A stretch of DNA of 59,555 nucleotides. Origin: Spirochaetales bacterium. GTDB taxonomy: Bacteria; Spirochaetota; Spirochaetia; SZUA-6; JAFGRV01. Below are positions 3,022 to 56,789 of this stretch, one piece after another. The notes beneath the pieces were generated by a model. The model made no database searches. It was given only the letters and a program-made list of their open reading frames with translations, and was not told the origin of the DNA. The first letter of the stretch is position 1. Every line of letters starts with the position of its first letter. A program made the position numbers and the translations under genes. Where the stretch lies: the NCBI GenBank assembly GCA_016937215.1, contig JAFGWI010000027.1:1-59555 (forward strand), in the 5' to 3' direction.

Positions 3022-3640
3022 TTCAACTGCTTTTATTTCCTTTTTTATCTATTCTTTTCATTGCTGAATTATTGAAAGCTCCTATAAAAATGCCATGGTA
3101 AATGAAAAATCCCTCAGTAAACTTCTTTTGCGGTTAAAAACAAACATTAGCTATAATTATCGATTGAAGCTCTGCGCCTCTTGTATTAAAGAGAGATATC
3201 AATAAAAGCTGCGGTGTGTAAAAAAACCAATTCTCAGATATTGTTTTGTTAGCTGACAAAATTAACCTTAACAAGCAAAATTATAGTATTTACATTATCA
3301 AAAAAAAGGCTTTTAGTACAGTGGCTCAAGTATTTTTATACCGACTACTCGAATAAAACGCGAAAAAGCACAAAAAGTATAAAAGACAATTATTGAATAT
3401 AGGTTCCGGGAGCACTTAGCTAACGACACAGATATGAGTGATAATAATGGCTTTAAAAGCGCGCAAAAAATTGATGAAAACAAAGGCCAAAATGATGATA
3501 AACCATACTCATGGGGCTCCCAGTGATGTGGAGGGATGCTTTCCTTTTTCACTTCAACATCAGTTGATGATTAGTATGTCGCTATAGTCCTTTACTTGCG
3601 TTTAATATGCAAAAAAAGCCTTAAAAGTAAATATATTTAC

Positions 3641-9683: not shown

Positions 9684-9854
9684 GCGTTAGGGATTGGAGC
9701 CATGAGGAGCTTTTTTTCAAAAAAGCGACGAAAACCCGATTTTCACGATTAACGTGAAAACCGGGGTCGAAGCCGAAAGGCATAGTGGCGCAAAGCCCGG
9801 CCCCGCCACGGGTCCTGAAGTGAAACGGAAGGGGCCGTGGCGGGGAAACGCCCG
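9684..9854 (+). repeat. family A structured repeat, copy A1
   Basis: GCGTTAGGGATTGGAGC..GCTTTTTTTCAAAAAAGC..CCCGATTTTCACG-attaa-CGTGAAAACCGGGGTCGAAGCC..CAAAGCCCGGCCCCGCCACGG..CCGTGGCGGGGAAACGCCC. Confidence 0.9.
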
Positions 9855-12494: not shown

Positions 12495-12582
12495 TGCTCT
12501 CGATTTTCTGTATAATATCTTAAGGGCGCGACTTTCGCTTATTGATAAAGAATAATCCCATTCACCAGGCATTATGGGCCTT

Positions 12583-12733
12583 GGGCGTTGCCTGCCTCCA
12601 CGATGTTACGGCAGGCCGGGCTTTCCACGACTCCGCTTCGCTTCGAAAGCCCGGTGCACGGAATTACCGTGCACCGGTGTTTCAGAAAGCCCTTTTTGAA
12701 AAAAGGGCTTTCTGTCGTTCCAATCCCTAACGC
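12583..12733 (-). repeat. family A structured repeat, copy A2
   Basis: Minus strand: GCGTTAGGGATTGGAACGA-CAGAAAGCCCTTTTTTCAAAAAGGGCTTTCTG-..-CCGGTGCACGGtaattCCGTGCACCGG-..GAAAGCCCGGCCTGCC..GGCAGGCAACGCCC. Confidence 0.9.
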
Positions 12734-12797: not shown

Positions 12798-13244
12798 GCA
12801 GCAGGGCAATCGCATTATAATTTTTATAGTTGTTTTGTCACTCTGAGCTAGCACCCGCCGTCATTCTGAGCTATCATCCGCCGTCATTCTGAGCTATCAT
12901 CTGCCGTCATTCTGAGCAAAGCGAAGAATCTCATTTGGCATGGACCAATAGTATTCACAAATAAAAGCCTCAAACCAGGCAAGATTCTTTTAGGACGCAT
13001 GAATACAGTGAATGCCAATGAGCATTCACGCCATACAGTGAATCCCAATGAGGATTTCACGTCACCGAGCAATAAATGCGGAGCATTTATGAACAGGCCC
13101 AGGACGCATGGATATAGTGAATCCCAATGAGGATTCACGCCACCGAGCAGTAAACGCGGAGCGTTTACGACCAGGCCCCCGTCGGTCCTCCTCAGAATGA
13201 CAAGAGGTTGAAACATTATTCTTTTAATGCGATTGCCCTGTTGC
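12798..13244. mobile_element. MITE-like element bounded by about 23-bp terminal inverted repeats (family C, copy C1)
   Basis: Left GCAGCAGGGCAATCGCATTATAA (12798-12820); right arm reverse complement GCAACAGGGCAATCGCATTAAAA (13222-13244), 2 mismatches; internal hairpin modules; no transposase ORF. Confidence 0.6.
12838..12920. repeat. tandem 23-nt direct repeats TCATTCTGAGCTATCATCCGCCG (three full units plus partial)
   Basis: Units at 12838, 12861 and 12884, then partial TCATTCTGAG at 12907. Confidence 0.85.
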
Positions 13245-20196: not shown

Positions 20197-20391
20197 GCGC
20201 CAGGGACCAGAGCTGTTTCAGCCATTTTTTCAAAAATGGCTGAAAAACAAAAAGCCCGCGCTTTGAAAGCGGGCTTTTTAGTCGAAGCGATAGCGGAGCA
20301 GCGGCAGGGCCCGACCCCGGCGGCTATTTGTTGAAGCGGCTCTGTCAGATAAAAAGATATCTGACTGTTTGACTGTGCCGGGGTGGCGCCC
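20197..20391 (+). repeat. family A structured repeat, copy A3 (divergent ends)
   Basis: GCGCCAGGGACCAGAGC-..-TTTCAGCCATTTTTTCAAAAATGGCTGAAA-..-AAAAAGCCCGC..GCGGGCTTTTT-AGTCGAAGCGATAGCGGAGC..GGCCCGACCCCGGC..GCCGGGGTGGCGCCC. Confidence 0.85.
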
Positions 20392-21136: not shown

Positions 21137-21405
21137 ATCATTCTGAGGAGGTACGACGGGGGCCTGGTCGTAAACGCTCCGCGTTTACTGCTCGGTGGCG
21201 TGAATCCTCATTGGGATTCACTATATCCATGCGTCCTGGCCTGGTCGTAAACGCTCCGCGTTTACTGCTCGGCCATGCGTCCTGGGCCTGGTCATAAACG
21301 CTCCGCGTTGCTGCTCGGTGGCGTGAATCCTCATTGGGATTCACTATATGGCGTGAATCCTCATTGGGATTCACTATATCCATGCGTCCTGGGCCTGTTC
21401 ATAAA
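21137..21405. repeat. family C repeat, copy C2 (inverted relative to C1)
   Basis: TCATTCTGAGGAGGTACGACGGGGGCCTGGTCGTAAACGCTCCGCGTTTACTGCTCGGTGGCGTGAATCCTCATTGGGATTCAC.. nearly matches the reverse complement of 13100-13200; modules repeated. Confidence 0.85.
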
Positions 21406-24561: not shown

Positions 24562-25715
24562 AATCTTTCCCTTCATAAAAGCAGCACTAGATGTGTCAAG
24601 GATGATTCGAAACATATAACCCAGGCAAATCTTTACTACCTGCCTTGCTGGCCATGGTATTAATCTTATTTATTAACCACTCAACAAGGTGCTGCTAAAT
24701 CTTCTCTCTTGTAATATGAATATACACAATCGCTAAAATCTCCGCAATGAAAGGGGCACGTTTTTTTTTAAAATTTACTTCATCAAATTGATGCTATTCT
24801 TAATCCAGCTTTTTTATTTTTAATTACGAATTAAAAAATATAACGAAAGTTTTTTAGATTTTTCAATCAATCGAAAGTTCAAATCGATTTAAATGCCATT
24901 ACAGATCTAAAAACATAAATATAGGAGTTTCGTCTTAAGCACATTTCGAAGATCAGCCTATACACAAATTAAAAAAATCAGGTTAAACTTAATATTAACT
25001 TTGATTGGACTCAACAGAAAGTGGTTTGAATGGCTGGTATTTGTTTGAAAAAACTGTCTCTGTGCTTGGACAACTCAGGAATCGAATTCAAAAAGGGTTT
25101 TTTTAAAAAGAGATTCGCGACGCGCATCCAGGCGAAAAACCTTTGAAACAAAAGAAAGGTCTATCTTTAAAAGAGGCTTTTGCACAACCTCAAAACACGA
25201 GGATGAGACAAAAACCCCATTACATAAAGCCAAACAAACCCATAGATAATGCTTCTGCCACCAATTTATGAGAACAATCCAAAGAAAAGACCAGCATGAA
25301 TAATGACGGGAAATAAAGAAAAAAACTGAAGAGGGGGCTTTACCATGAGAGTAAAGAGCATCACCAACGAGAGGAGGCGTAATTCATGCTGAACCCCTTT
25401 TATTGATTCACAGCACCTGTTTAGCTAAATCACAATTTGGCTTTAAATGCATTAGGGACAGGAGACATGGCTTGCTTTTTTTTAAAAAATTACAAGTCAA
25501 AGCGTTTTCTGTTGTCTTATTTTCGGCAAGGCTGGATGTACACAGTGAATGCCACTGAGCATTTACGGCCAGAGGCCGGATAACCCAGTCTGCCAAAGGC
25601 AGACAACGCCCAAAAAGCATAGGTGCTAAACAAACAGGATTCACAAAATACAAAGGGGTTCCAAAATTTTCAATTTTATAATTAATCAGAAACGAAAATC
25701 AAAACGGAGGAAAAA

Positions 25716-36463: not shown

Positions 36464-36535
36464 CAGTGAAATTATATTTTTTTTAGCCCTGCTGTGTCAA
36501 ATTGTTTCTATTTTTTTCCATTATATTAATGAAGG

Positions 36536-36730
36536 GGGCGTTGCCCGGAAACCTGGACCCTGTCCATTCAGCCTGATCAGCATCACCGCCCCACCCTACA
36601 CTTCGGTTCCGGGCCGGGCTTTTCAGGGCTCCGCTTTGCTCCGAAATCCTCGCCTGCCAATAAAGCAGGCTGCGGGTTTCAGGGTATTATTTTTGAAAAA
36701 ATAATACCCTGCCCTTACAATCCCTAACGC
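36536..36730 (-). repeat. family A structured repeat, copy A4
   Basis: Minus strand: GCGTTAGGGATTGTAAGGG-CAGGGTATTATTTTTTCAAAAATAATACCCTG-..-GCCTGCtttattgGCAGGC-..CGGAGCAAAGCGGAGC..AAAAGCCCGGCCC..GGGCAACGCCC. Confidence 0.9.
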
Positions 36731-43290: not shown

Positions 43291-43323
43291 AAAAATTTTA
43301 TATTTAATATTTGTTATGCATTT

Positions 43324-43481
43324 GGGCGTTTCCCCGGCCCTTCCATTTTATTTCAGGGCCAGGGCCGGGCTTTGCGCAGCTCCGCTTCGCTTCGGCCTCC
43401 TCGCCTGCCAATTGGGCAGGCTGCGGGGTCTGCCGCGAGGTTTTTGAAAAAACCTCGCGGCGCTGCTCCAATCCCTAACGC
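43324..43481 (-). repeat. family A structured repeat, copy A5
   Basis: Minus strand: GCGTTAGGGATTGGAGCAGC-GCCGCGAGGTTTTTTCAAAAACCTCGCGGC-..-GCCTGCCcaattGGCAGGC-..GGCCGAAGCGAAGCGGAGC..CAAAGCCCGGCCC..GGGGAAACGCCC. Confidence 0.92.
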
Positions 43482-45650: not shown

Positions 45651-45793
45651 GCGTTAGGGATTGGAGCGGCATGAAATGTTTTTTCAAAAAACATTTCATG
45701 AAACCCACAGGCGCGATTTTTTCGCGCCGAGGATTTTGTAACCGCGTAAAGCCCGGCGCTTGCCGGCCCCTGGGCCGGACAAGGGCAACGCCC
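45651..45793 (+). repeat. family A structured repeat, copy A6 (shortest copy)
   Basis: GCGTTAGGGATTGGAGCGG-CATGAAATGTTTTTTCAAAAAACATTTCATG-..-GGCGCGATTTTTTCGCGCC-..GTAAAGCCCGGCGCTTGCC..GGGCAACGCCC. Confidence 0.92.
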
Positions 45794-45819
45794 AAACTCA
45801 TACACTCAAAAGTGTCAAA

Positions 45820-50875: not shown

Positions 50876-51030
50876 TTGGAGCTTGCCCCAGCCCTGAAAA
50901 GGGGCTCGGGCCGGGCTTTGCACCACTGCGGCTTCGCCTTCGAAGGTTTCCGGGCGGAAATCATCCGCCCGGAAACGCTTTGTTGGACTATTTTTGAAAA
51001 AATAGTCCAACATGGTTCCAATCCCTAAGC
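50876..51030 (-). repeat. family A structured repeat, copy A7
   Basis: Minus strand: GCTTAGGGATTGGAACCA-TGTTGGACTATTTTTTCAAAAATAGTCCAACA-..-TTTCCGGGCGGAtgattTCCGCCCGGAAA-..CGAAGGCGAAGCCGCAGTGGTGCAAAGCCCGGCCC..GGGGCAAGC. Confidence 0.9.
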
Positions 51031-51177
51031 TGTTATTTCTGAATGCCTATTTTAGCTGAAACAAAAATATTCTGAAAAACAGGGCTGCCTTAAAGGTTCA
51101 TAAGCCCTTTGTCAGCTCAAAAAACACTTTCCTGAAACCAATTTCAGAAAAGGGCGGAAAATGATCAATTACTCGGC

Positions 51178-56549: not shown

Positions 56550-56743
56550 GCGTTAGGGATTGGAGCAGGGCGCGGTTTTTTTTCAAAAAAACCGCGCCAC
56601 CCGAAGGCCCGCGTTTTCAGCGAGCCTTCGGGTCGAAGCCGCCAGGCGGAGCTGCGGAAAAGCCCGACCCGGTCGCCGAGAACAATGACTCTTTGTTAAG
56701 CTTTGTAGATTATAGGGTATAGGGAATGATCCGGGTAACGCCC
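56550..56743 (+). repeat. family A structured repeat, copy A8
   Basis: GCGTTAGGGATTGGAGCAGG-GCGCGGTTTTTTTTCAAAAAAACCGCGCC-..-CCCGAAGGC..GCCTTCGGG-TCGAAGCCGCCAGGCGGAGCTGCGGAAAAGCCCGACCC..GGGTAACGCCC. Confidence 0.92.
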
Positions 56744-56789
56744 GGAAAAACCTTTATTTCAGAATCAAAGCAGGAGCAGCTCAACCCGC

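Follow-up and report, generated by a model that had tools for sequence, protein, structure and literature searches.

A dispersed intergenic cloverleaf element with variable, matched stems in a spirochaete genome that may act as folded single-stranded DNA

How do the two arms of a hairpin stay matched in copy after copy when their letters look unrelated between copies? The question is raised by positions 12,583-12,733 of a 59,555-nucleotide stretch of a Spirochaetales genome (contig JAFGWI010000027.1; the whole stretch is called the window here), where a first-pass annotation had described a hypervariable stem, hairpin I, around an invariant apex in a family of repeats, A1-A8. Read directly, the outer stems named for A2-A8 are all seven perfect inverted repeats, and a hairpin I with variable, matched arms is confirmed. 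The stem of A1, described as shorter, does stand apart, but not as a degenerate A2: it is a member of a class with a fixed internal loop (GAGGAGG/CCGACGA). The apex, TTTTTTCAAAAA, is common without being strictly invariant; it is exact in 144 of the 188 genomic places described below, and occurs 25 times in the window at up to one mismatch, against 5.2 expected. As an explanation, we consider the chances slightly better than even that hairpin I belongs, as one arm, to a non-coding element scattered between genes and working as folded single-stranded DNA, through the strand that reads TTAGGGATTGGA. The arms would then stay paired because the whole repeat seems to be selected to fold as a DNA strand.

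The interval holds one complete element on the minus strand, copy A2, placed at 12,582-12,733 by our covariance model R1 (147.7 bits). The whole repeat is an intergenic cloverleaf of about 152 nt, composed of P1, P1b, P2 and four hairpins, hairpin I being one arm. In A2 the fold is a closed multibranch P1 - P1b - P2 structure with hairpins I-III inside and hairpin IV between P1b and P1. Alignment of the copies gives P1 as nnnTT/AAnnn, P1b as GGG.TT/AA.CCC with a fixed A.G mismatch, and P2 as four pairs. On the minus strand of A2, the 5' arm of P1 (GCGTT, 12,729-12,733) pairs with AACGC (12,585-12,589); hairpin I (12,683-12,714), read from the sequence, joins CAGAAAGCCCTTTT and AAAAGGGCTTTCTG around the apex; hairpin II (12,651-12,677), taken from the DNA fold, reads CCGGTGCACGG-TAATT-CCGTGCACCGG; the hairpin III region (12,635-12,650; GAAGC-GAA-GCGGAG) carries a small loop assigned to the GNA/GNNA type from loop counts; and hairpin IV (12,590-12,616; GCCTGCC ... 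GGCAGGC) is given by both the DNA fold and covariation. The DNA minimum-free-energy fold of this copy is the covariation structure (z = -7.6).

The other copies in the window are A1 (9,684-9,854, plus strand, R1 86.8 bits), which has the internal loop in hairpin I, A3 (20,197-20,326, plus, 79.1 bits), A4 (36,535-36,730, minus, 120.3 bits), A5 (43,323-43,481, minus, 116.7 bits), A6 (45,651-45,794, plus, 95.6 bits), A7 (50,877-51,031, minus, 140.8 bits) and A8 (56,550-56,744, plus, 101.0 bits). A decayed ninth copy of 225 bp lies in a shell of terminal inverted repeats at 25,413-25,637 (plus strand); its core (25,449-25,612) is matched by R1, the apex is missing and pairing is badly broken. An 8-bp duplication, GATTCACA, stands on both flanks of this copy, the one such case in the window. 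A second, small hairpin-repeat family (GTGAATGCCAATGAGCATTCAC, AAACGCTCCGCGTTTA and variants whose matched arms differ) was also seen at 12,992-13,180, 21,161-21,392 and 25,529-25,567; it lies between genes, is often nested inside the arms of cloverleaf elements, and has short stems that also vary yet remain paired.

The source genome (G000; 5.09 Mb in 335 contigs) contains 148 exact pairs of TTAGGGATTGGA with the apex and none of the reversed control pattern. R1 found 26 matches in 113 kb of blindly picked contigs (L084-L091), which extrapolates to about 1,000 copies per genome. Detection that ignores the stem, using only the 5' motif at up to one mismatch, yielded 188 places. When up to one mismatch is allowed, stems of 8 bp or more are present at 171 of these (13 in shuffled segments) and stems of 10 bp or more at 144 (shuffled, 1); perfect stems of at least 10 bp were found at 116 places and of at least 12 bp at 111 (shuffled, 0 for both). 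The concern that most genomic copies might have an imperfect hairpin I, or none, is not borne out by the 171 places with a stem. Contigs L052, L057, L069, L076, L088, L089 and others end inside an element, and many such ends are expected if near-identical copies break the assembly.

Five classes of copy were distinguished: class I (GCCATG...AAAGCG), class II (...CTGAAACCC), class III (...CCAACA), class IV (GAGGAGG/CCGACGA, with the internal loop in hairpin I) and class V. All seven class V copies are without hairpin I, which is therefore a variable module and not the essential core. Class V copies, for example those at L047:2609-2809, L079:1309-1509, L088:7700-7902 and L243:1504-1704, lie inside the inverted-repeat shell, have a long conserved inner arm, CCCCGCAGCAGACCG...GGTTCTGCGAGGAG, and are the copies matched by the Flavo-1 model described below.

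Beyond this genome, the exact pattern was found in none of the 40 nearest genomes. At class level, 59 of 297 genomes carry R1 relatives, and at phylum level 52 of 296; examples are G148 with 113 copies, G163 with 91 and G482 with 46. A Hymenobacter plasmid carries a complete intergenic member (R1 53.4 bits), three further Hymenobacter plasmids have DNA-level matches, and one IMG/VR viral contig has one R1 match (50.6 bits). A pattern match in a Verrucomicrobiales MAG from a genome-contig scan was single, lay in coding sequence and was set aside as chance. In G163 (L156), a second structured stretch, AGGGTCTACTTGTAGCCCC...CCTGCGAGCTTACA, is conserved ahead of several copies, and the shell is unlike that of G000. 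TD-2 RNA (RF03162), an RNA of Treponema denticola, has matches at L114:1295-1389 and 3037-3130, near an element, in a probably T. denticola-like genome; TD-2 matches in the carrier genome G068 make Spirochaetota the probable phylum.

Covariation extends over the whole fold. With the structure drawn by eye before testing, both partners have changed in 37 of 53 pairs among 28 copies of G000 (score 0.549, against 0.143 shuffled), a signal abolished by sliding the partners out of register; phylum-wide, this holds for 49 of 52 pairs among 69 distinct sequences (0.445 against 0.108). In the 28 copies, both sides have changed in 11 of 14 pairs of hairpin I and 13 of 15 of hairpin II. P1, with arms about 140 nt apart, changes on both sides in G000 and across the phylum (GCGGC/GCCGC, GCACA/TGTGC, CGGAC/GTCCG), and P2, with arms about 90 nt apart, also covaries. 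Strong structural selection on the arms, one of two explanations offered in the first-pass annotation, is thus supported, as every variable helix covaries. The many freely varying stems of this one genome amount to a natural set of compensated variants.

We propose that the strand would fold when the DNA is single-stranded, during replication, repair or transfer, and that a putative structure-reading protein would recognise the conserved joints and loops of the cloverleaf and, by binding there, help the element to spread or be retained. Such a protein would read shape and joints and not stem letters, so stems could drift freely provided the partner changes too; copies losing the fold would stop spreading and then decay. 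No co-occurring protein was found, and Y1 transposase and integron integrase are absent from some element-rich genomes. If stem letters are free to drift, a given stem would be a neutral lineage mark and not a guide. The barcode idea, with its suggested search for stem targets, gained no support: arm 10-mers occur 297 times elsewhere in the fetched genome, against 333-338 expected under a Markov model, and an apparent 1.7-fold excess of these 10-mers, which would have suggested guide or barcode targets, was gone under that background. Phage and plasmid collections gave no match to the window copy.

Strong covariation is equally a property of structured RNAs, and the element could be one, like Rfam's Flavo-1, with transcribed copies and selection on the RNA fold; we regard this as unlikely. 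Selection on an RNA should allow G.U pairs but not A.C pairs. G.T and A.C mismatches number 131:107 in 150 copies and 32:33 phylum-wide, against 14:0 in tRNA stems of the same fetched DNA, a small control of 11 tRNAs (Fisher p = 4e-4 and 2e-4), although some helices have a slight G.T surplus, for example 28:11 in class I P1. With DNA energies, the complete P1b+P2 core appears in the minimum-energy fold of 26/28 copies of G000 and 53/69 phylum-wide; with RNA energies it is misfolded in most copies (complete in 3/28 and 7/69), and the complementary strand with DNA energies gives 4/28 and 8/69. The tRNA acceptor stem was found slightly better with RNA energies (76/77, against 71/77 with DNA energies), so the DNA result is not just a matter of more permissive parameters. 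Most loops of hairpin III (70/98) are GNNA with a pyrimidine in third place, GNYA as opposed to the GNRA of RNA. Comparisons of energy parameters are an indirect test of the acting form. Genomic setting also bears on the question: none of 120 copies lies inside a predicted gene, orientation is mixed, no fixed partner gene or strong gene context was seen for these copies, no neighbour gene is common to the elements of low-copy genomes, and the gene-orientation test revealed no terminator-like preference for convergent genes. This lack of a fixed strand or gene context speaks against an RNA, but in tandem gene pairs the sense orientation is modestly favoured (34 versus 18), which leaves room for a transcribed role. 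Together the evidence, indirect but concordant, points to folded DNA over RNA.

The RNA reading draws further on homology with Flavo-1. This motif (Rfam RF01705) was listed in 2010 for Bacteroidetes with no function given (PMC2864571), and in Flavobacterium psychrophilum its matches are indistinctly sense or antisense and many are untranscribed (PMC9723704); that the matches in this species are not strand-linked to transcripts weighs against an RNA. The Flavo-1 model matches elements of G148 and G203 above the gathering cut-off (42 bits). In G000 it finds 40 places, all below the gathering score (best 35.7 of 42), several of which coincide with class V copies (C111, C225, C258, C280, C94). The window copy has no Flavo-1 match, and Rfam models gave nothing at gathering score on the window, with chance-level matches only at E<=5. 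R1 matches L254 and L257 at the same places as the Flavo-1 model, and residue-level alignment (L243, L254, L255, L257) contains the core helix ccGAUuG/AaAGCgg with its A.G mismatch, followed by a P2-like helix. Judged from this alignment, the core of the element is related to Flavo-1. A sub-threshold Termite-leu RNA match at L257:983-1070 runs antisense to a strong element match (L257:921-1071, minus strand), with which it may share hairpins.

The elements are most likely folded single-stranded DNA members of a Flavo-1 superfamily. We put forward more tentatively, at somewhat less than an even chance, that Flavo-1 and its relatives as a whole form a cross-phylum superfamily of folded single-stranded DNA and not of RNAs, in which a protein reads the DNA cloverleaf and the stems are free to diverge, and which reached about 1,000 copies in a spirochaete-type lineage, partly in inverted-repeat transposon shells. 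If so, what is known as an 'RNA motif' would become a mobile DNA structure; should the element act as folded DNA, looking for a Flavo-1 ligand or target RNA would be misguided, and the protein reading the DNA cloverleaf would await discovery. Comparing G.T with A.C, DNA with RNA energies, and strand with strand is cheap and could be used on other orphan 'RNA' motifs.

A mutational account needs no selection: palindrome correction by template switching between the arms, the second explanation in the first-pass annotation, would by itself keep the arms identical. Template switching is known to homogenise imperfect inverted-repeat arms (PMC8604942, PMC7202029), close copies are separated by paired substitutions that include double transversions (L040 versus L038, L083 versus L027), a pattern that also counts for the folded-DNA reading, and in copies detected with the model the decay of hairpin I lags behind that of P1 and P2. 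This slow decay is a biased result, because decayed copies were found through hairpin I, which R1 detection rewards, and some 3' arms in the first decay analysis were broken by nested insertions; the apparent support is traced to these two sources. In the stem-independent search, the non-Watson-Crick fraction of the stem rises from 0.05 at 1-2 anchor mismatches to 0.31 at 3-5, a set in which some members are wrongly assigned class III copies whose internal loop is native; decayed copies thus lose hairpin I pairing. Loop inversions, a product of template switching, are absent at all 188 places, and one inverted apex was seen outside them, in a copy in L054. P1 and P2 covary although each has only four to five pairs and distant arms. 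The matched arms are better explained by selection on the fold, combined with the birth and death of copies, and palindrome correction seems to us improbable.

Some copies have moved by transposition. Many class I copies lie between the 13-bp GTATTTGTTTAGC, 36 nt upstream, and its inverse, about 25 nt downstream, and 8-bp target duplications are perfect in 11 of 42 shelled copies and within one mismatch in 16 of 42 (control, ~0). Class I copies are thus miniature inverted-repeat elements that have transposed. Only in classes I and V did copies show terminal repeats and target duplications; among 52 copies of classes II-IV the left shell end is present in just 4, and the search in these classes gave one candidate at most. 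A long element with GTATTTGTTTAGC ends and a duplication, such as would carry a parent transposase, was absent from the fetched part of the genome, and joining the flanks revealed no empty sites inside repeats.

Two known kinds of palindromic site were weighed as identities for the element. A REP/REPIN-type repeat moved by a RAYT (Y1) transposase would likewise be intergenic, palindromic and of high copy number, and a Y1 protein lies ~300 bp from one copy in G000; this reading was rejected as very improbable, as the Y1 transposase does not track the element (no PF01797 match in the carriers G163, G482, G169, G203, G068, G242 and G152), which is also far larger, branched and without a noted GTAG/CGTC tag. 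An integron attC site, the best-known folded single-stranded (recombination) site, is scarcely credible and largely refuted, even with an integron integrase adjoining two copies in G000 and R-box-like motifs on the flanks of class I copies: the box order is reversed (GTTYAGC ... GCTRAAC versus R''(RYYYAAC)...R'(GTTRRRY)), no integrase exceeds the cut-off in G163, G148, G072, G169, G242 and G368 despite 8-113 copies, the integrase is far from most elements in G068 and G203, and copies are dispersed in both orientations. We note that the integrase gene of G000 (L160:770-2277; contig C94) appears to be split by an insertion of ~170 bp; downstream of the gene lie two elements and one isochorismatase-like ORF.

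Compared with known systems, the preferred reading of the element as folded single-stranded DNA shares features with several. Like attC sites, one orientation of a single DNA strand would be folded and the fold conserved over sequence, whereas box polarity is reversed, IntI is dispensable and copies are dispersed. REP/REPIN sequences and RAYTs (PMC3116915, PMC3733652) likewise involve high-copy intergenic palindromes, but the elements here are larger, branched and do not co-occur with Y1. Class I copies resemble MITEs in being non-coding, ~190-430 bp long, and equipped with 13-bp terminal inverted repeats and 8-bp target duplications; they differ in carrying a conserved, covarying cloverleaf, which spans phyla and in most copies has no shell, and in that the parent transposase was not found. 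With Flavo-1 the elements have in common the ccG-A-Uu ... Aa-G-Cgg helix with its internal A.G mismatch and covarying U-A pair, GA-rich joints, a P2-like helix and an intergenic location. Flavo-1 itself, catalogued as an sRNA of Bacteroidetes, is modelled over 76 positions with a single inner hairpin; the elements described here, at ~152 nt, have in addition the closing helix P1, hairpin IV and as many as three inner hairpins.
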